Assembly (NCBI GenBank): GCA_021234155.1 | Contig: JAJEKV010000040.1 | Span: forward strand, 3,573,799 to 3,637,798 | DNA from: Isoetes taiwanensis | Taxonomy: Eukaryota > Streptophyta > Lycopodiopsida > Isoetales > Isoetaceae | Length of the DNA stretch: 64,000 nucleotides | Direction: 5' to 3' | In this document: piece by piece, positions 52,397-64,000 of the stretch | How the letters are laid out: each line of letters begins with the position of its first letter | How positions within the stretch are numbered: position 1 is the first letter of the stretch | Notes under the pieces: generated by a model | Told to the model about the DNA's origin: nothing | The model's input: only the letters and a program-made list of their open reading frames with translations | Database searches by the model: none | Made by a program: the position numbers and the translations under genes

Positions 52397-53339
52397 ATCC
52401 CTTTTGAGGGTAGACAACTTGATGTGTACATATTTCTCGATAGGCTCTTTCTCTTGAAACTATTTGGGGCAGGGTTTTACTAGTAATGGGCTTACTGCAT
52501 GTGTATCATGTTGCATGGACATTTGGTCTCGCTGGCTGTTAGAAAGCGATACAAATTGATTGAGTGTGTGCATCCCAAAACATATATTAAAAGCGATTAG
52601 TGTCAAGATATTTTTGAATCTAGTGATTCGCGTCAAAATATTGTTAAATCTGGTTTTTGTACACAACTAGTATCTTCTAACAACACATGCTTCATGTTTT
52701 TATTTTATAAAGGACATAATTTACTTGCTGCAAAATGTATAGGTGAAGTAGAAGCTACACCGCGTGGTAGATATTTGTGCAAATTGTGGGTATACATTAC
52801 CTAGCAGAGAAATGAAGACTTTTGTGAAGACATTATACTTATTGGCCATGTTTTAAAGGCCAATTGCTATGTAAGACCAGACTTGCCCCAGTAGTTCAAC
52901 AGCACAGTTATTGAAGACGAAAAATTTTTGGTCAAAATTTTGTAAAATATTTTGTTTTATTAAATCCGGCAAATTCCTTTCTATCACAAAGATAAATATT
53001 TTCTCCACTCTAGATAGATTACTTGAAAGCTAGAAGATTTTTTCATAGAAATCTGCTAGTGTCACTAAAGCAAGGCATTTTGCTGGTTCAAGCAAAATTT
53101 AAATTGTGTGGTAAGATATAAGAATGCACATTGAACATGTGTATGTGTTGCTGTGTTAAAGTGAAATGTGAAGGATGTATTTACGAATGAAAATCTTGCA
53201 CCTTCCGGTCTTGTTACTGCACTGTCAGCGGCTCTGTGGTCCCCTGTTGTCAGATCCAAATGCCGTGACAAATCAGCTGCTGCTGCATGTATTTGTTGAG
53301 CTTGGAAATTTGTTTGATCTCCTGCAGATCATCCTCTCC
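52397..53339. other. Upstream region of the CYP74 gene
   Basis: I see no coding region or named repeat. The promoter of the CYP74 gene must lie here or overlap it. Several AT-rich tracts could hold a TATA box, for example GATATAAGA near 53115, but nothing fixes the transcription start. A frame continuous with the gene extends up to 53175 but shows no transit-peptide or P450 features. Confidence 0.45.
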
Positions 53340-54935
53340 ATGGCCATCAATACAGCAGCTTCAATCCTCTGCCCTTCCCCTTTTCCATCCGCCGGAATCC
53401 AACGAGAAAAATATCCTAGATCTGTTAAATCCTGTCGATTTAGCCCTCTTCCAGCTTCTGCTAAAACCCGTGCTCGAAAAATCCATGTTTCTGCCACTAT
53501 TTCTTCCGATATTATCACAGGTTTGGCAGAAACATCCTCGCAAGATATTCCTGGGGATTATGGCCTTCCTATTTTAGGCCCCATTTTGGATCGGATTAAC
53601 TATCACGAGCTTGGAGCTGAAGAATTTGTTAAAAAACGTGTTGAAGCATACAACAGCACAGTATTTCGTGTAAATATGCCTCCAGGACCGCCAGGATTTC
53701 CAGATTCTCGAGCAATAGTGCTCGCAGATCAGAAAAGCTTTAGGGTTCTATTTGATGTAGAAAAAGTTGAAAAGAAAGACCTGTTTACAGGCGCTTATAT
53801 GCCTAGCCCTGCATTTACAGGGGGTTTCAGAGTTCTTTCTTACCTAGACACCATAGAAGATAGAGATGCTCATTCAAGATTGAAAAAATTTTGCTTCCAA
53901 ATCTTGTCTTCGAATGGAAAGAAATGGATGCCCGAGTTTGAAGAGGCGATTAATGAGGCATTTTTGGTGTGGGAAAAACAGATCCAAGAAGCCGGGAAGG
54001 CAGATTTTTCAGATGTTGCATCAGATTTTGTGTTTAATTTCTTGGCGAGGTCTGTTTTGAGCAAAGATGCAAGATTAGAAGATGCAACAAAGCTGATAAA
54101 TACATGGCTACTGCCGCAGCTGCTGCCTCTTCTCAAGTTAGGGCTGCCAAGAATCATAGAAGAAATTTTCTTGCATTCTTTTCTGTTGCCGTACTTTCTT
54201 GTAGCTAAGCAGTACCAAAAGATAACAGACTTCTTCGAGAAATATGGCAGCAGAGCTCTGGATATGGCAGAAAAGGACCTGGGTTTAGATCGAAAAGAAG
54301 CTCTCCATAATCTGATCTTTTTTATATGCTTCAACACTCATGGAGGTCTGGTAAGGCTTTTTCCTTCTCTGCTCAGGTATATGAGTTCTGCAGGGCCAGA
54401 GCTGCAGCAGCAGCTTAGGGAAGGAATCAGAGGTGCTGTTGAATCTAATGGAGGAAAAATCAACATGGCTACTATGCAAAACATGCCTCTGCGTAATTCT
54501 ACAGTTTATGAAGTTCTCAGAATTGCTCCTCCTGTTCAGTTCCAGTGTGGCAGAGCCAGGTCTGATATTACTATCAATTCCCATACTGCATCTTTCAAGG
54601 TTAAAAAAGGTGAATTTCTTGCTGGTTTTCAGCCATTTGCTACCAGAGACCCTCTGATTTTTGAGAACCCAGATCAGTTTATTGCTGATAGATTCTTGGG
54701 TGATGAAGGATCTAAGAAGTTGGATTTTTTGCTGTGGTCTAATGGCCCTGAGACTTCATCTCCTAGTGTTGATAACAAGCAATGTGCTGGAAAAGATTTT
54801 GTTGTGTTCATTTCTAGATTGTTTGTTGCACACATATTCTTGAGGTATGATTCCTTTGCTCTTGGCCAGCCCCTTGTTAAGGGCTCCATTGTCAAGTTCA
54901 ACTTTTCCAAGCTTCAAAGAAGAGCATCACATTGA
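53340..54935 (+). CDS. CYP74 cytochrome P450, allene oxide synthase-like
   Basis: The 531-residue protein has no introns. CYP74 enzymes rearrange fatty-acid hydroperoxides without O2 or a reductase; allene oxide synthase feeds the jasmonate pathway in plastids. Residues 1 to about 55 are rich in Ser, Ala and Arg with few acids, as in a chloroplast transit peptide, so I start at the second Met (MAINTAASIL) rather than at 53175. Landmarks are ExxR at 391-394 (EVLR), the I-helix FNTHGG with Asn332 at 331-336, and the CYP74 heme block NKQCAGKDF with Cys482. Phe138 (VLFD) and Ser156 (YMPS) align with Arabidopsis AOS Phe137 and Ser155; Phe there favours synthase over lyase activity. His334 replaces the Trp of Arabidopsis AOS. 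A hydroperoxide lyase or divinyl ether synthase is the main alternative. Confidence 0.95.
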   Translation: MAINTAASILCPSPFPSAGIQREKYPRSVKSCRFSPLPASAKTRARKIHVSATISSDIITGLAETSSQDIPGDYGLPILGPILDRINYHELGAEEFVKKRVEAYNSTVFRVNMPPGPPGFPDSRAIVLADQKSFRVLFDVEKVEKKDLFTGAYMPSPAFTGGFRVLSYLDTIEDRDAHSRLKKFCFQILSSNGKKWMPEFEEAINEAFLVWEKQIQEAGKADFSDVASDFVFNFLARSVLSKDARLEDATKLINTWLLPQLLPLLKLGLPRIIEEIFLHSFLLPYFLVAKQYQKITDFFEKYGSRALDMAEKDLGLDRKEALHNLIFFICFNTHGGLVRLFPSLLRYMSSAGPELQQQLREGIRGAVESNGGKINMATMQNMPLRNSTVYEVLRIAPPVQFQCGRARSDITINSHTASFKVKKGEFLAGFQPFATRDPLIFENPDQFIADRFLGDEGSKKLDFLLWSNGPETSSPSVDNKQCAGKDFVVFISRLFVAHIFLRYDSFALGQPLVKGSIVKFNFSKLQRRASH

Positions 54936-55363: not shown

Positions 55364-55929
55364 TTTCCTATAAAGTTCAGAAACACAAAGTTTAGAGTAG
55401 TGAGTATACACACCATAAGGTATACCAAATCAAAGTCCCCGGTTAAACCAAGGCACTGAAAGCAAGTAAAAAACCTTTGTCAAGACAAGTCCTGACCCTA
55501 AGACCAAAAGCCCTTTTGAGAATTTAGCCTTTAATTAGCACCCTTAGAGTATAGTGGTGTACATATATCTAAGCAATGATTTGGTGCCATAGATCATGTG
55601 AAATTTTTTTGTAATCAGATGTCAATACATTTTCATACTTTAATATAAGGCATATGGAAACAATTTACCCCATGGGTAGAAACCATTTGCAACTAAGTCA
55701 ATTCAAAACAAAGATTTTTCTAAAAAATTTTAGAGGAATAGAAAAATAGAGCTTCCACAAATCTTTGAAGAAATACTTCATATGTGAGACGCTCCATACA
55801 AGAATATATCAGTGCGAAAAGCAAAAGATCCTGTTATCTGCAGTAAACCAATCAAATATTGGTCTCTAGGGTAATTATGGAAGCACTAGCAGGTGTCATG
55901 GGATCTTTTGAGTTATCCCCTTCACTCTG

Positions 55930-56150
55930 CCTGATACACAGAAAATTTCAAAGCAGAAAAAGAGAAGTTTAGATGTGTAGTTTTGCAAACCATGTTTAAC
56001 TAAAGGTGGTATTTCATTATTATGGTACTCAATCCAGATGATTGAAGTCCTTCCAACAGCAGCGCCCCAATCCGTGTCATAATTACCCAGATCTACCACT
56101 AATCTTGAGGCTAGAGAATAACTTTCAGATATGAACCTTTCCACAAACGC
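55930..56150 (-). pseudogene. Exon-like frame b in repeat L
   Basis: Reading minus from about 56150, after TTATTGAG, the frame gives FVERFISESYSLASRLVVDL, WGAAVGRTSIIWIEYHNNEI and PPLVKHG before a GTTTGC donor-like site. The copy in repeat R (62102-61930) keeps the frame with four or five amino-acid changes. I do not recognise the protein. Conservation of the frame in both copies suggests a true exon. Confidence 0.4.
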
Positions 56151-56706
56151 GCCTCAATAATACATCAAATATAAACAACAACTTTTAATTATATCAGATC
56201 TGATGCTAATAATGGACAAGTCATGGTATTTCACCAGAAGCAATATGAAGTTTCAACATATATGAGCCTAAATTTAGAGGCAGGACATACATTTAAGATA
56301 CATATATCCATCCAGATATAAGCCCTAGTGCTTTGACATGAGAATCGCAAAAGTTATGCTAGATTCTTGAATACTAAAAACTATTCATCCCTGAAATTAT
56401 ATCACATTCAGGTTAATTAGACCAAGGAAACGATATAACTAGTCTTTTATCCTTAAACATTTTATGTAGACACCATGCAATAGAGGCCTTAAAGATCTGA
56501 AAGAATAAATGCATTCAAATCTGATACCCAGCAACCTACTCTAGATTAATTTGCTAGAAAGGAGATAAAAAAACTTTCTCTAAGCACTATTAAGCAGATC
56601 ATGTATCAGAGAGAGTTATTTATGTCTAGGCCCCAACCAAATTACAAGATCTCAAACCTAATATTGTTGAATGGGTTTAGATGTCTCCAGATTTGCTGAG
56701 AAATTG

Positions 56707-57066
56707 CTAGTCCATGGTGGGTGTGATACTTGAGGCTTGATTCCACATATTTGTCTTAGAACCAGTAATTTCCACCGCAATATCTGGCAGATTGGTATTG
56801 CACATGAAGTTGCTTTCAGCTTCCTTATTGCCCTCAAGAACTCCTGGATTGCTCAGATCTTTATCGGCAGGGATACTTGCTTCCAGATTACCTTTCTGTG
56901 CAAGGCATACTGGTGCATAAAAATCATAGAGCCTCTTATGTTTGGCATTCAACTTCTTTTCCTCTTCAAGCTTCTTTTTCATGGAAGCATTCAAATCTCC
57001 TTTCCTTCTTCCCATTGCAGTGGGGTATTTGATCGGCCCTGGACCGCAGGTATGGCTTAAGAGCAA
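56707..57066 (-). pseudogene. Exon-like frame a in repeat L (basic N-terminal protein)
   Basis: 119 codons read MLLSHTCGPGPIKYPTAMGR, RKGDLNASMKKKLEEEKKLN and AKHKRLYDFYAPVCLAQKG to a stop at 56707-56709. The Met at GRRKGD may be the true start. The Lys/Glu-rich segment followed by YDFYAP resembles N-termini of nuclear or DNA-handling proteins, but no domain is recognised. The same frame occurs in repeat R (63590 to past 63900). Confidence 0.4.
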
Positions 57067-57433
57067 ATATCTGAATGCACCAGATTGTAAAATACAACCC
57101 TCTATATAGGATTATCCTGGTTCTGTTCTTAAGGCCGGCCTCTTTGTAAATGGATTCTAACCTTACGTTTTCTCCATCCAGCCCGATATAAACAGATTTA
57201 TCCATGCATGAAAATGACCAGAACCTTTTTAGAAAGGTCATGAGAATACCTAAAATATTTTGTCCAGTAGAGCTGCTGTCGTGGATAGAATTAGGTCAAG
57301 CTCTTTGCTGTCACGAATTCTGTAAGCCCTACATCAGACCTTAGAAATATTGAAAGTTTAAACATATGAGAAGTGTGTTTTAGTCCAAGTGAATTCACAA
57401 CTTCCTTTCATATGGAATCCAAGTTTAAGTTGT

Positions 57434-59770
57434 TTAAACTTTGCTCAATTCAATTGTTAGATAATTAATAAAAAAACCCTGCCTCCAACCGTAGCAAAGG
57501 TGGGCCATTCCGCAAGATAGAAGTCTCAAATTATGATTACAGTAAGGAGAGTAAGACCTTGCTGTAATCAAGGCCCTACCCTCACTATATTGTACTGTTA
57601 AGATCCTTAACATGTCACCCAGGCTGTAGAGCAAGCCTGGGAATTGCTCATTGGTAAGGCACTCATATACATTTTTAATCATATCTTTCCTGTAAAAGCC
57701 ATTACTATGGAAAGCTTCAATTAGATTTTTAAGATCATATGCCGCAGAGTATACACAGGAATGAGCATATATATAAGGTAAAAATTGAGAAACAATTACC
57801 TTGGATGCTTGATTATAGGGCCTACAACTATCCGCCATAATGAATTTAGTAGCTACAAATGGGAGCTTGACCCTTTTATCAAACCTGGATTTAAAGTGAA
57901 TATTCCACATTCATGGTCAGTAACCAGAAATGAGAGGTTGAGAAAATCAGCTTTAAAGCCATAAGGATTGCCTCCATTTTCATTTTTATGTGATGTTTCA
58001 TCCTTAATGGATAAATGCTGAAAGTTGTAAATAGTGACTTTAGAATTATTTGAGAAGAAATCCTGTAAGGGTCCCCCATTAATGATGTTCAAGTCATCTA
58101 TATACCTGGAGGCATACCTAAATTTCTTGATAGCATCCATTCTTCCTGTGTGTGCCAGTTTGAGGATTTAAGCTCGCACCATGCAAGGTACAGATTGCAC
58201 CAGACAAGGCTGCAAGCAAATCCCATGGGTATCCCCTTGCATTGTTTCCATACTTCATTGTCCATTTGCAAAAAGCAGTGGCTCAAAAGCCAAGAATTAA
58301 TCTTTTTTAATTCCCCTCTGTTCATAACCTTCCAGCTTGCATCTTCTTCATCATTGAGATGTTTATACCATTTGGTACTGTAGCGTCCATTTTTCTCCTT
58401 AACTATAAGGTAAAATAAGATTTTGATCCCTCATGTGATCTCAGATAAGGTCAGCCACTTCATTTATGATGTAAATAATGCCATCTTCCTCATCAAGTGG
58501 GATGTTTTCTTTGCATTTCATAATGTCTACTGAGAAGACATCATGAATTTGGTGTGGTAGATTCAATACGACATCATATGTTGAGTTTACTATCCAGCAT
58601 GCATTGACCTCTTTACACCACAGTCTAATTTGAGTTGTTTGCCTATGACAGCTTCAATAAAACTGCTCAAAATTGCAGTAATGCATATGGATAATTCTGT
58701 GAACAAAGAGTTGTGCGCATCGGTTAGCCACCTATATTCCTGCTTGTGAGCCTTGTATAGCACGCCATTAGGTAAGGTAATTTAGAATATTCAGTAGGCA
58801 TATGAAAATCAAATTTCTCAATTTCCCCAATACATTTGGCTGAGCTGCTTAGTCTTTCAATAGCCATCTTCCTAATGTGGGTTTGACAGATAAAGAAAGC
58901 GTTATTTGCTGCTTTCTCAATTCTTGATATGTAGAAGTTTTTGGTTAGCCACTCAAGGTTACTGCAGACATCCGCATCCTTCCACAAGAATATTTTTTTA
59001 TGTAGCTTTCTCGTGTGCTCCACAATGTTCATGTGGCAAACCCTGAGAATGATTTCAGTAAAGTTTTCCTTATCAGGTTCAGAGAGGTCTAAAAGGTTAT
59101 AGTAATGTACCCCAAGGAAATCTCTTCATAAGAGCTTGCGCTCCTCCATAAAGTCCTAAACATTCAAGGGGCAGTCAAGAATATGATTTAAACCCTTGGC
59201 AAAGGCATTTCTTAGCTTTTTGTTATGTATAATACTTAGGTCAGTAGACCTAATATGCCCAATGGTAGGGTCAACAAATTGTCTTAGCACAGGGTTTTTG
59301 CATGGACATCTATTGGTGGTCCCATCAGCAAAGGTATTAAAGGGTTTATATACCTTTTATTTAATTTGCTCCACATATCTCCATGAAAAGATAGTTTCGT
59401 CAACCAGTTCTGCACCCCTATCTCCAAGTGCTTCATATAGTACAACACCAAAGATTTTTTTTCAGATTGAAAATGTCTAATGCTCTAGACAGATGACTCA
59501 TATGTGTAATCTTCGAATCATCCTTAGGTTTAATAGTGCTGAGGTGTTTCTTCCTGTTGCAGTCTTTGATGATGTTCCTCGTAATGGAATTTGAGTCCTT
59601 ATCAACAGATTTAATAGAATAGGTCAGACGTAATAATACTGTATCATGTAATGAAATTTTAGAGTTAAATATTTGCAAAACACTAGAATAGTATTGTAAA
59701 CAAGTTTGATTTCCAAAATAGAGGGTTGTACACCAATCTATTGGAGTTTTAAAAAACACCATGATCAAGG
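57434..59770 (-). pseudogene. Reverse transcriptase with YIDD box, unusual class
   Basis: Minus-strand pieces in shifting frames read as one protein. Near 59250 RSTDLSIIHNKKLRNAFAKG precedes a helical stretch (59032-58724). Then 58325-58098 gives WKQCKGIPMGFACSLVWCNL, the fingers-palm block, and 58140-57853 gives FRYASRYIDDLNIINGG, the active site. The thumb-like part (57910-57434) contains RFDKRVKLPFVATKF, YNQASKVIVSQFLPYIY and NEQFPGLLYSLGDML. It is neither Copia, Ty3 nor L1 type: the GIPMG block and YIDD with a following DKR...PF segment recall Penelope-like and rvt-type reverse transcriptases. I saw no GIY-YIG endonuclease or integrase. Several frameshifts and stops are present. Confidence 0.7.
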
Positions 59771-59820
59771 TGCAACATTATAGTTGGCAGATGTTTTTGA
59801 TAAAACCACAAGCCCAAGTA

Positions 59821-59896
59821 AAACATGATTTTGAAAAATCTTGGGTCGGGTTCAGCAGAAACATGATTTTGAAAAATCTTGGGTCGGGTTCTGCTT
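59821..59896 (+). repeat. 38-bp tandem duplication
   Basis: Two units, 59821-59858 and 59859-59896, start AAACATGATTTTGAAAAATC and differ at two or three bases near their ends. It overlaps the C-terminus of the minus-strand frame and duplicates its PTQDFSKSCF segment. Confidence 0.85.
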
Positions 59897-61309
59897 AAAC
59901 CCCACATCATTCTTCATTGGAGTGAGAAGCTTTGGGTCATGAGTAACCCTAGGAGGCACCTTTGGTGTGAACATCTGCTTTGGTCCATTGCTGCAAGAAG
60001 ACAAAGGCCTGCTAGAAACTGAAAAAGAAGGTTGACTGTTCATTGGATTCTTTTTTAGGAAATCAATATTCCTGATAGACTTTTCAGCAATTTCCGCTAA
60101 TTTACTATTGCCATGTAGAGCTTTGAGATTAACCTGAGGGGAAGTGGCAAAAGTAGTGGCCATCTCGAGCATCACCCTTCTGACCTCCAGATATGATATG
60201 TAAGCAAGGACAACGAGTTTCATATTTTTGTTCAGAATTTTAGTCATGGCGACCATCTTCATCATGGGAGTAGCGCCAGGGTAAACTGTCTCCATGTTGT
60301 TTAATAAGAACCAGATTCCCTGATCAAACCAAATTATGCCACTGGGACATTTAGTTCTTTTTCCTTTTGTCACAGTTGCACTTAAAATAAGGGCAGTGTG
60401 TCCTCCACACTCTTTTGAGATAAATTCTCCCCTTTCTTCCCCAGGATAGGCCATGTGACCTTTTTGGCTAACATACAACGTTGTACTCTTGTTACAGTCC
60501 TGTTCAAAGAAAGTAATATCAAAGTTAACATCCAGCTTTTCCATAATAAAGTACTTTTTCAACTTCGCAGCCTTGAATGCAGTCTCATCATCTGTTATTC
60601 CTGCAAGTGCTCTCCATGTATCAAGATCTATTGGGGTAAGGGCCCCAAAGTTTTGACTTTTCCATATACTATAAAAGTATCCAGCAGAAAGACTTTCAAC
60701 TACTAGTTCAGTAATAATGGGAAAGCATGAGAGTTTGCTAAGGTAAGATAGGGGACTTTATCCTCTGAACCTTCAACAGATTTGGAGACATATGATTCTT
60801 CTTTTGTATTAGTATTGCAGTTACCAAGGCTAAGAAAATCCTCTTGTGAAAGATCACTGTCAGAAAAGAGGCAGTTTAGTATGCTCGAGGGATTCATCCA
60901 TCTCGAAAGTGAGGGGTTTAACTTCATTGGCTTTTTCCAAAGCAATGAGTCCAACTATAAAAGCTCTTCCAGCTTTATCCTCAACACATGTTCTATTGAA
61001 GAGAACAGTGGGAATTTCATTCTAAATTGAGATCAAAAGATCTTCACATTTGGTATATTCAAAATTTACCTTTTTCATGAAATGAAAGGCTTTAAACCAT
61101 CCATTGAAATCTAGACAAGTCACTGGTGACCATTTCTTTTCCACAAGTCTAAATGAAAATGATAAACTCATGAATCCTCTTGGATTTGATGCAGGCCAGA
61201 ATGATTTGCAAAGCTATTCTTGGGTTTTCAATCCCGCATTCATTGTAGTGAAAAGGTATTAATTCCTTAATCCACTGTTTGCTAGTATCTTCTTCATTGG
61301 ATACCTTGT
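59836..61309 (-). pseudogene. ORF1-like and unknown region of the YIDD element
   Basis: On the minus strand, coding resumes right after CTTTATAG at 61309 with ENKVSNEEDTSKQWIKELIP and ENPRIALQIILACIKSKR. A shift leads to MSLSFSFRLVEKKWSPVTCL, DFNGWFKAFHFMKKVNFEYT and DKAGRAFIVGLIALEKANEV. A further shift gives SDSDLSQEDFLSLGNCNTN. The longest frame, 60562-59852, reads WRALAGITDD (upstream), KYFIMEKLDVNFDITFFEQD, IIWFDQGIWFLLNN and a Ser/Pro-rich end. I recognise no domain with confidence; the middle part has the feel of a plant retroelement ORF1. At least four lesions are present. It is continuous with the reverse transcriptase downstream. Confidence 0.5.
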
Positions 61310-61929
61310 TTTCCTATAAAGTTCAGAAACACAAAGTTTAGAGTATTGAGTATACACACCATAAGGTATACCAAATCAATGTCCCCGGTTAAACCAAGTC
61401 ACTGAAAGCAAGTAAAAAACCTTTGTCAAGCCAAGTCCTGACCCTAAGACCAAAAGCCCTTTTGAGAATTTAGCCTTCAATTAGCAGCCTTAGAGTATAC
61501 TGGTGTACATATATCTAAGCAATGATTTGGTGCCATAGATTATGTGAATTTTTTTTTTAATCAGATGTCAATACATTTTCATACTTTAATAGGCATATGG
61601 AAACAATTTACCCCATGGGTAGAAACCATTTGCAATTAAGTCAATTCAAAACAAAGTGTTTTCAAAAAAAATTTAGAGGAATAGAAAAGTAGAGCTTCCA
61701 CATATCTTTGAAGAAATACTTCATATGTGAGACGCTCCATAATATTGACTAAAGAATATATTAGTGCGAAGAGCAAAAGATCCTGCTACCTACAGTACAC
61801 CAACAAAAAATTAGCCTCTAGGGTAATTATGGAAGCACTGGCAGGTGTCGAGGGTCTTTTGAGTTATCCCCTTCACTTTGCCTGATACACAGAAAATTTC
61901 AAAGCAGAAAAAGAGAAGTTTAGATGCAT

Positions 61930-62108
61930 AGTTTGATGAGCTGCAAACCATGTTTAACTAAAGGTGGTATTTCATTGTTATGGTACTCAAGCCAGATGAT
62001 TGAAGTCCTTTCAACAGCAGCACCCCAATCTGTGCCATAATTACTCAGATCTACCACTAATCTTGAGGCTAAAGAATAACTTTCAGATATGAACCTTTCC
62101 AAACACGC
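61930..62108 (-). pseudogene. Exon-like frame b in repeat R
   Basis: This is the counterpart of 55930-56150: MERFISESYSLASRLVVDLS, WGAAVERTSIIWLEYHNNEI and PPLVKHGLQ. A base lost near 62100 breaks the link to the upstream FV. A real role is unknown. Confidence 0.38.
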
Positions 62109-62732
62109 CTCAATAATACATCAAATATAAACAACAACTTTTAATTATATCATATATGATGCTAATAATGGACAAGTCATGGTATTCCACCAGAAGCAAT
62201 ATGAAGTTTCAGCATATACGAGCCTGAATTTAGAGGCAAGACATACATTTAAGATAGATATATCCATCCAGACATAAGCCCTAGTGCTTTGAAATGAGAA
62301 TTGCAAAAGTTATGCTAGATTCCTGAATATTAAAAACTATTCATTCCTGAAATTATATCACATTTAGGTTAATCAGACCAAGGAGATGATACAACTAGTC
62401 TTTTATCCTTAAACATTTTATGTAGATACCATGCAATAGAGGCATTTAAAGATCTGAAAGAATAAATGCATTCAGATCTGATACCCAGCAACCTACTCTA
62501 GATTAATTTGCTAGAAAGGAGATAAAAAAACTTTCTCTAAGTACTATTAAGCAGATTAAATATCAGAGAGAGTTATTTATGCCTAGGCCGCAACCAAATT
62601 ACAAGATCTCAAACCTGAGATTGTTGAATGGGTTCAGATGCCTTCAGATTGCTGAGAAGTTGCTGGTGTCCATGGTGGATGCGATACTTGAGGCTTGATT
62701 CCTCATATTGATATTGTTGAATGGGTTTAGAT

Positions 62733-63557
62733 CAGAGTAGCCCTTAAGCCCAAATTTTTATAGGTGTAATTTAGAATGTGAGGCGAATCTTAGCTTTTTT
62801 CGATTAGTTATGTTGGCGATTTTCTTTCGGGCTTCAATTTGAGTTGTAGCAACCTTGGCGAATCTTTCATCCATCAAGTGATGGAATATATACTTTTTTC
62901 TCAAGTAAAATTTGGGTCTACAATATATATTTGTTATGTCCGTATACAGTTGTAAGCGTAATGCTCACATAATGAATATACATGTTATCAGACATTGGCA
63001 TGTGATTGTAAATCTCAATAGCTCCATATTAAGCGCTAAACAACAAGAAGTACACAAACTTAGCCGAGGCATGATTGCATATTATGGTGGGCAAGCACAA
63101 ACCGATTTGATTTCAGTCATCTTTTTAAGATTGGATAAACAACAAACCAAAAGCAAAAATACTCTAGGATTGCATACCCAGATGTTGGAACCGGATCATG
63201 AAATCCATATAACATGCATGGTTTTTTCCCTTTCCTTTTTTTTTTTCTTGGAGGTAAATGGCAATTCTAAAAAACTCACCAAGAATAGAATTCGCATTAA
63301 TTTTACATGATTTTAGGGGGTTAAGGGGCGATTTTAGAATAATTACCAAGAATAAAATTCACATGGGGGCGAATCTAAGAATCCATCATTTAGTGATATA
63401 GGCTAACTTATGAGTGGAGGGAGAAAATTTCGTAGACAAGGTGGCGATATTTTATTGGCACCACTCCTAATTGATCCTACTCAACAATAGTGAAAAAAAA
63501 TGCAAATGTCCAAAAAAATAGCCTTTTGGCGATATTTCGAGCTTAAGGGCTACCCTG
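62733..63557. mobile_element. Non-autonomous hAT-type element, 825 bp
   Basis: The ends CAGAGTAGCCCTTAAGC and GCTTAAGGGCTACCCTG are inverted copies with one mismatch. The element is flanked by the perfect 8-bp target duplication GTTTAGAT (62725-62732 and 63558-63565). CAGRG ends with 8-bp duplications are the signature of the hAT superfamily. No transposase is encoded; the longest frame, 62912-63310, has no domain. Repeat L lacks the insertion and shows the empty site GGGTTTAGATGTCTCC. Confidence 0.9.
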
Positions 63558-63589
63558 GTTTAGATGCCTCCAGATTTGCTGAGAAATTG

Positions 63590-64000
63590 CTAGTCCATGG
63601 TGGGTGTGATACTTGAGGCTTGATTCCACATATTTGTCTTAGAACCAGTAATTTCCACCGCAATATCTGGCAGATTGGTATTGCACATGAAGTTGCTTTC
63701 AGCTTCCTTATTGCCTTTAAGAACTCCTGGATTGCTCAGATCTTTATTGGCAGGGATACTTGTTTCCAGATTACCTTCTTGTGCAAGCATACTGGTGCAT
63801 GAAAATCATAGAGCCTCTTACGTTTGGCATTCAACTTCTTTTCCTCTTCAAGATTCTTTGGAAGCATTCAAATCTCCTTTCCTTCTTCCCATTGCAGTGG
63901 AGTATTTGATCGGCCCTGGACCGCAGGTGTGGCTTAAGAGCAAATATCTGAATGCACCAGATCGTAAAATACAACCCTATATATAGGATTATACTGGTTC
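63590..64000 (-). pseudogene. Exon-like frame a in repeat R
   Basis: This is the counterpart of 56707-57066. The C-terminal 66 codons are intact (LAQEGNLETSIPANKDLSNP, NTNLPDIAVEITGSKTNMWN, SSITPTMD). Upstream, small deletions near 63780 and 63862 break the frame. The sequence runs out of the window. Confidence 0.4.

Follow-up and report, generated by a model that had tools for sequence, protein, structure and literature searches.

A probable endonuclease-less Penelope-like family with terminal repeats of the LTR type in Isoetes taiwanensis

What kind of retroelement occupies positions 55364–64000 of the stretch of Isoetes taiwanensis DNA analysed here (64,000 nucleotides of contig JAJEKV010000040.1; the window)? 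All parts of the element lie on the minus strand, where long direct repeats enclose a degraded frame, called ORF1 (open reading frame 1), and a degraded reverse transcriptase (RT) with QCKGIPMG, YIDD and DKR..PF blocks. An earlier note, made from the sequence of the window, had described an intron-bearing unit of this kind and had leaned towards a Penelope-like element. We favour, with a probability of roughly 0.55, the reading that the element is a degraded copy of an abundant family of endonuclease-less Penelope-like elements (PLEs) that has the organisation of a long terminal repeat (LTR) element and that would prime at its target by pairing an RNA U-run with an A-tract. Read from the sequence, the order of the unit is T-run, repeat, ORF1, RT, repeat, T-run.

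A family of repeat-flanked, intron-bearing elements

The genome (1,658,258,908 bases in 1110 contigs) was searched for further copies with a 110-residue RT fragment as query. All 150 scored rows, out of 2070 first-look candidates, matched; an RT frame of at least 600 amino acids is listed in 56 of the 150, three of them flagged with one stop. Fifteen other copies were oriented and studied in detail together with the window copy. Direct repeats longer than 200 bp were found within the stretch fetched in 14 of these 16 (E07 and E15 showed none). Ten copies have repeat pairs of 1.9–2.4 kb, the E17 pair joining a lone repeat with that of a neighbour; for E02, E14, E18 and the window, the repeat alignments are shorter or fragmented. 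The ORF1 frame has 508–534 amino acids in 12 of the 16 copies, and in 11 of those 12 the RT frame has 688–702 (517 in E03). The repeat–intron–exon order therefore recurs in other genomic copies, with repeats far beyond chance, and these results support the earlier note in seeing a multicopy, intron-bearing retroelement that lacks recognised gypsy, copia or long interspersed nuclear element (LINE) accessory domains. A one-off segmental duplication was dropped as an explanation because the repeat structure is common to other genomic copies. A single-copy, immobile rvt gene, which the note had kept as an alternative, is ruled out by the copy number and by the empty sites described below.

Identity to locus L001 is 53–57% for RT and 44–52% for ORF1, with L003 (81%) as the exception. 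The two repeats of a pair differ by a Kimura two-parameter distance of 0.003–0.049 in the nine copies measured. The ratio of nonsynonymous to synonymous divergence (dN/dS) is 0.04–0.09 in four close comparisons (RT: E15/E18 and E04/E05; ORF1: E01/E03 and E04/E05), whose dS of 0.76–1.8 is partly saturated; a fifth and more distant one (ORF1 of E17/E18) gave 0.143 at a dS of 2.7. Eight lowest-dS comparisons were taken for each ORF, of which six for RT and five for ORF1 had a saturated dS and yielded no ratio. The ratios indicate that close pairs are under strong purifying selection, and frame identity, dN/dS and repeat divergence together suggest to us lineages that are old and conserved and that have been active recently. 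Searches of IMG/VR and of GTDB genomes found no relatives. A literature search returned no description of the family in Isoetes; it is weak evidence of novelty, most subscription papers lying outside its reach.

The repeats of the window align in register at 86–97% identity (ungapped blocks), which confirms the claim that ORF1-like frames and an RT with the named blocks are bracketed by direct repeats on the minus strand. Their spacing is ~5.95 kb, then ~6.88 kb beyond an insert of ~0.9 kb in the 5' copy. Self-alignment extended past the window into the contig pairs 55364–57454 with 61310–64332, and the junction motifs set the repeat limits at about 64390–61414 and 57476–55468; comparison with a fuller copy puts the start of the 5' repeat at ~64370–64390, just beyond the window edge. 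Both internal frames are interrupted by stops and frameshifts. The features of the window copy are as follows.

61414..64000, minus strand: 5' terminal repeat, continuing to ~64370-64390 outside the window and carrying an insertion at 62710-63556
61314..62614, minus strand: predicted intron 1 (donor CAG-GTTTGA, acceptor TATAG), spanning the repeat end
61347..61596, minus strand: 250-nt stretch of the RNA alignment, with predicted helices P1, P2 and P3 around the U-run
61414..61419, minus strand: U-run ending the 5' repeat, T6 in the window, in a position like that of a primer-binding site
59870..61313, minus strand: ORF1 exon, degraded, lower limit approximate (508-534 amino acids in the 12 long-frame copies)
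57560..59640, minus strand: RT exon, degraded, limits approximate (~690 amino acids where intact elsewhere; YIDD codons near 58104-58090)
57477..57506, minus strand: GGCCCACCTTTGCTACGGTTGGAGGCAGGG, conserved block directly before the 3' repeat, in a position like that of a polypurine tract
55468..57476, minus strand: 3' terminal repeat, bounded by T7-ATTA and the AAAGG-T6 end site, placed by self-alignment, junction motifs and the end rule of the family
56707..57015, minus strand: exon-1 frame MGRRKGDLN... in the 3' repeat
55364..55467, minus strand: extra 104 bp beyond the usual repeat end, to just after the acceptor TATAG (55369-55368)

The insertion in the 5' repeat resembles a small DNA transposon: its ends are inverted (GTAGCCCTTAAGC / GCTTAAGGGCTAC), and ATCTAAACC may be duplicated.

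The exon-like frames that had been noticed in the repeats correspond to a small exon frame, exon 1, of 115–131 amino acids where intact and starting M.R(K/R)KGDLN; in the window, its copy in the 5' repeat (ATG near 63892) is broken. The donor that closes it, (C/A)AG-GTTTG, is readable in the window and in 8 of the 15 other copies (E01, E03, E04, E13–E16 and E18), E12 and E06 have variants, and the remaining copies are broken or unclear. In the copies with a long ORF1 frame, TAG directly precedes both ORF1 (12/12) and RT (12/12), while it makes up 24% of the stop codons in these loci. Those TAGs close acceptor-like strings such as TTTATAG and TCTGTAG, and motifs resembling CTAAC/CTGAC branch sites are seen by eye upstream of several RT exons. 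The donor is in phase 0, so that exon 1 would join either ORF1 or RT in frame. Since the ORF1 frames all end at nearly one position, the simplest reading is a single leader exon that is alternatively spliced to ORF1 or RT. The predicted introns are retained in the genomic copies, as the acceptor-like TAGs (12/12) indicate, and the template was thus presumably unspliced.

Fixed ends and T-tract targets

The earlier note had taken CTTTATAG both for an acceptor-like site and for the point at which the two repeats end. As an acceptor it is plausible, ORF1 reopening after the TAG in the 12 long-frame copies, but it is not the general end of the repeat. Among 51 repeat-match rows, 17 stop at query base 1661–1663, which is ~104 bp short of CTTTATAG and is where 3' repeats meet a T-run; 12 rows outside the window run to 1767. 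Both window repeats do reach CTTTATAG, but this is a peculiarity of the window copy, in which the extra 104 bp may be the stub of a truncated tandem unit.

The 3' repeat ends in AAAGG, followed by a long T-run and then by unique flank, and the element opens, at its 5' end, with a T-run and then ATTA or a variant of it. Among the 11 copies displayed, ten start after a T-run (E06 does not, and that of E17 belongs to the lone repeat) and eight end in one; the end of E12 is cut off, and the 3' repeat of E17 continues as a tandem. Inside the element, the block before the start of the repeat is conserved and ends in GGAGGCAGG or close variants. The repeats have no TG..CA ends.

A 26-base pattern of the 3'-repeat junction has 33 matches in the genome and 0 when reversed. 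Twenty of these junctions lie outside the first set and served as an independent sample, for which both predicted ends were fetched; six 5' ends and eleven 3' ends were not located within the fetched stretches. Three of the 14 located 5' ends belong to tandem units and are preceded by internal sequence. Of the other 11, ten follow a run of at least nine T's, some with up to six bases before ATTA, and one (site 8) follows a TTTA repeat. The nine located 3' ends comprise seven T-runs (one interrupted by an A), one tandem and one unclear case (site 14). As background, 0.4% of positions are within 3 nt of a run of at least nine T's (184 kb of loci, elements included). At most located ends the T-run is on the sense strand of the element. 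These observations give a rule for annotating a family that lacks the usual domains of LTR elements: the repeat starts at T7-ATTA and finishes at AAAGG-T-run, and GGAGGYAGG immediately precedes its 3' copy.

Empty sites were sought with the joined flanks of five elements, three of which gave no row spanning the join. For E13 (locus L013 on C1027), the empty counterpart (L090, C953:164734-165021) has T26 between flanks that are identical over 130/130 and 131/131 positions, and where the element sits, 16 T's stand on one side and 20 on the other. The C953 counterpart may be the other haplotype, in which case the E13 insertion would be polymorphic. E16 sits in repeated sequence, and all 11 paralogous empty sites that were fetched have a T-rich tract at that point, of ~7 to 20 T's and in a few cases interrupted. 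Since the empty sites carry the tract, E13 and E16 inserted into pre-existing T-tracts, and nothing but T's was duplicated.

These sites could also be explained by end joining, in which the cDNA would be made away from the chromosome as a linear double strand that ends in T/A-runs, and would be captured by microhomology at breaks in T-tracts, with no target priming. The T-run at both ends of the element, the T-runs that flank most located ends and the lack of a recognised integrase would all suit such a route. However, it has no need of the conserved RNA fold described below, which holds the U-run and whose 3' half is outside the ordinary 3' repeat, and we regard it as rather unlikely.

A covarying RNA fold and the priming model

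The region round the 5' repeat end was aligned as RNA for 15 copies, the window included. The U-run there is mostly T6–T7 (range T5–T9). RNAalifold predicts three elements: helix P1, which spans the U-run and pairs repeat sequence with internal sequence; helix P2, which is short; and hairpin P3, which comes just after the U-run. Two-sided changes occur in 13 of the 19 pairs, and 93.7% of cells pair. None of 500 shuffles reaches the observed value on any of five measures, and every slid control is far lower; kin sequences may beat shuffles even when unstructured, and a structure derived from the sequences tends to beat its slid versions. We take the many two-sided changes as the main support for the predicted fold. 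The fold alignment has 27 G-U cells and 0 A-C cells, which marks the sense strand as the folded RNA. Folded singly, the sequences give z-scores of -1.8 to -7.7, and the minimum free energy (MFE) structure contains P1 (at least partly) in 14 of the 15, P3 in 13 and P2 in 5. Ordinary 3' repeats lack P3 and half of P1, both of which lie past the end of the repeat, so that the complete fold could form only at the junction of the 5' repeat with the internal region, or in RNA that is tandem or circular. Of the bases that directly follow the U-run, only CAG, which pairs in P2, is conserved, and no tRNA-type primer site after the 5' repeat is conserved, as judged on the 15-copy alignment and with no tRNA search run. 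The earlier note had foreseen neither the fixed, LTR-like repeat ends, nor their abutting on T-tracts, nor the covarying RNA structure that brackets the repeat end.

The U-run comes right after the 5' repeat and the purine block right before the 3' repeat, and they therefore occupy the places of a primer-binding site and of a polypurine tract. We suggest that a telomerase/Penelope-type RT, for which no endonuclease is recognised, would bind the fold in unspliced RNA at the junction of 5' repeat and internal region. The 3' end of a target A-tract would anneal to the U-run and be extended by the RT, the growing strand would transfer to the 3' repeat, and second-strand synthesis would begin at the purine-rich conserved GGAGGCAGG block, which would fix the other repeat end. 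Both repeats would thereby be regenerated, as in LTR elements. Such priming would account for the conservation of the fold, for a T-tract target whose strand is fixed, and for repeats that are nearly identical and have fixed ends.

At E17 (L017, reverse strand, 184-2091), a lone terminal repeat flanked on each side by a T-run stands beside a truncated tandem element. This repeat and the tandem units of the independent sample (3/14 located 5' ends, 1/9 located 3' ends) are explained equally well by a circular or multimeric RNA, at whose U-run the RT would prime and which it would circle more than once; stopping at the T7-ATTA junction would then give repeat–internal–repeat units, tandem arrays and lone repeats. 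The complete fold would also be present in every RNA of circular or tandem form. Yet Rfam found no ribozyme, hammerhead included, at E<=1 in five copies and the window, although very small variants could escape (the sole match was a weak MIR5285, below cut-off), and both tandems and lone repeats can also arise by unequal recombination between repeats. On balance such a template seems improbable to us.

The long and variable T-runs at the sense 5' end would likewise fit an L1-like, polyadenylated antisense template, that is, a minus-strand transcript that ends TTTAATAAAAAAA at the repeat start and primes with its poly(A) on T-tracts. A template of this type has been proposed for Penelope to account for intron retention, according to the available text of PMC3846280. 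The sense-strand character of the fold (27 G-U against 0 A-C cells) speaks against it, however, and the fixed AAAGG-T end would be left unexplained; we consider it very unlikely.

The reverse transcriptase and its kin

The RT alignment (A1) contains 13 of the 16 copies, E02, E03 and the window being omitted as broken, and the ORF1 alignment (A2) contains 12. Pfam RVT_1 matches all 13 intact RT frames, with a best value of 8.3e-6, just below the curated cut-off. A search with the AlphaFold model of the RT gave telomerase at ranks 1–8 in Foldseek (E 6.8e-5 to 0.12) and at ranks 1–12 in VIA (Z 9.2–7.7), where a spliceosome chain (7.6), a viral polymerase (7.2) and a group II intron RT (6.0) were among the others. 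VIA warns that a Z near 8 can be non-specific, and the unbroken run of telomerases is the stronger point. In a profile comparison, motif B aligns with the host telomerase exon (P 0.0013, at a probability of just 18%), and the longest frames of four RVT_1-hit genome loci gave P of at least 0.16 with the palm unaligned. Telomerase is thus the best match to the predicted fold of the RT.

Among the 13 RT and 12 ORF1 members, Pfam recognised no endonuclease, integrase, RNase H, protease or gag and no tyrosine recombinase; nor was there a GIY-YIG domain, as the earlier note had reported. ORF1 has no convincing Pfam family in its 12 members. Apart from RVT_1, the Pfam matches were at chance level and confined to one or two members (e.g. 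RegB endoribonuclease at 0.34 in one RT member), NCBIfam gave two weak RT matches for one element (the best to a group II intron RT at 0.008), and PDB profile searches gave one chance-level match each. An ordinary gypsy or copia LTR retrotransposon, decayed or with its integrase lost, would account for the long terminal repeats and the near-identical copies. It could hardly account for intact copies that are under purifying selection with no recognised integrase, protease, RNase H or gag, for the failure of the four RVT_1-hit loci to give anything at the palm or for the first rank of telomerase in structure, and we give it almost no weight.

A partner endonuclease was looked for near GIY-YIG genes. 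The genome holds 121 GIY-YIG matches outside the family, which form a dispersed protein family in small open frames. Four of the 121 loci were opened (L021 4017-4373, L022 3937-4407, L023 4010-4300 and L024 3677-4066), and by eye none has an RT frame of the family's kind within ~4 kb. In L021, Blast against the elements found a 134-base piece of repeat ~2 kb away from the GIY-YIG gene; in L023, a locus that by eye also has LINE-endonuclease-like frames, it found other short matches. The host telomerase RT exon occurs twice, ~7 kb apart (L020 1395-2081 and 8422-8763, on C1056), and C1062 carries a second telomerase RNA-binding match, which suggests a partial duplication of TERT. Next to the element, the plus strand of the window carries at 53172-54935 a 587-residue open frame that matches cytochrome P450 (PF00067, 1.6e-19) and that, by eye, we take to resemble the CYP74 allene oxide synthase group.

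How does the family compare with known systems? PLEs share an ancestor with telomerase and may keep introns and form partial tandems, according to the text of PMC3846280 available to us. With canonical Penelope and Dryad elements (same source), the Isoetes family shares introns in genomic copies, direct terminal repeats and partial tandems. It differs from them in that no GIY-YIG was found in ORF1 or RT, the RT occupies its own exon beside ORF1, and only T's were duplicated at two empty sites; its repeats are ~2 kb, whereas those of Pen2a_Av are given there as 218 bp. The Penelope-like reading of the earlier note accordingly stands as regards the predicted RT fold, for which telomerase is best, and the retained introns, but not as regards the canonical endonuclease. 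The kind that fits best is the endonuclease-less PLE (Athena, Coprina, Terminon), with an RT whose predicted fold is nearest to telomerase, two ORFs, no recognised endonuclease and head-to-tail tandems, to which an LTR-type organisation is added. Table 1 of PMC9033089, as far as it was available, lists such elements for Selaginella moellendorffii, Pinus and Picea, and we therefore regard the Isoetes family as a variant of that kind. Protist and fungal endonuclease-deficient PLEs are said, in the accessible part of PMC3846280, not to share the pseudo-LTR (pLTR) organisation of canonical PLEs; the Isoetes family, in contrast, has LTR-type terminal repeats. In Terminons, as the available text of PMC6431247 describes them, a 3' RNA fold exposes a short tract, next to a ribozyme fold, that pairs with the target end. 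A fold that exposes a short tract is common to both, but in Isoetes the tract is a U-run, the targets are dispersed T-tracts and not telomeric repeats, and no hammerhead was found in the copies searched with Rfam. A scan of the 16 copies and their flanks, in 17 entries because the window copy was entered twice, found no TTTAGGG or CCCTAAA dimers.

LTR retrotransposons and retroviruses resemble the family in their long terminal repeats, fixed ends, purine-rich block before the 3' repeat, unspliced genomic form and, if our prediction holds, a leader exon shared by different ORFs. They differ from it in the integrase, RNase H and protease, none of which is recognised here, in the TG..CA ends and conserved tRNA-type primer site that it lacks, and in its RT fold, which is closest to telomerase. 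Unlike in DIRS-like elements, no tyrosine recombinase family was found in ORF1 or RT. The telomerase ribonucleoprotein is similar in its RT fold and, we infer, in having a template-like tract in structured RNA where a DNA 3' end could anneal; the Isoetes family, however, is mobile and multicopy and has an ORF1 and repeats, and the host telomerase gene is separate.

Several points weigh against the assignment to an endonuclease-less PLE that primes at T-tracts. The class was judged from fold ranking and domain content, the RT model has a low confidence score (pLDDT 63.6), and its TM-scores to the telomerase matches are low (0.16–0.35). The structure model of ORF1 is poor and could hide a nuclease. 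Target priming, strand transfer and the start of the second strand are steps that we infer. P2 hardly varies and is in few of the MFE structures (5/15), and the whole fold lies inside predicted intron 1, where it could serve splicing. The splice sites are themselves predictions from sequence, and because the frames were defined from stop to stop, some stop codon is expected before each of them. Finally, the ends are not uniform: E06 has no 5' T-run, the E18 repeat departs before its 3' end, the 5' end at sample site 8 follows a TTTA repeat, and site 14 is ambiguous.

We nevertheless prefer the endonuclease-less Penelope-like reading and, more tentatively, put forward as a possibility that the family is a distinct retroelement, in which a telomerase-type RT would carry out LTR-type replication without any integrase, RNase H or tRNA primer, and in which a fold-held U-run that anneals A-tract ends would combine primer binding and target choice in one step. 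If true, this would join telomerase-style priming, where a short tract of folded RNA anneals a DNA end, with LTR-style duplication of the ends, and would do so in a plant family that is numerous and has been active recently. Thanks to the covarying fold and the T-tract rule, the priming model lends itself to direct tests in vitro.

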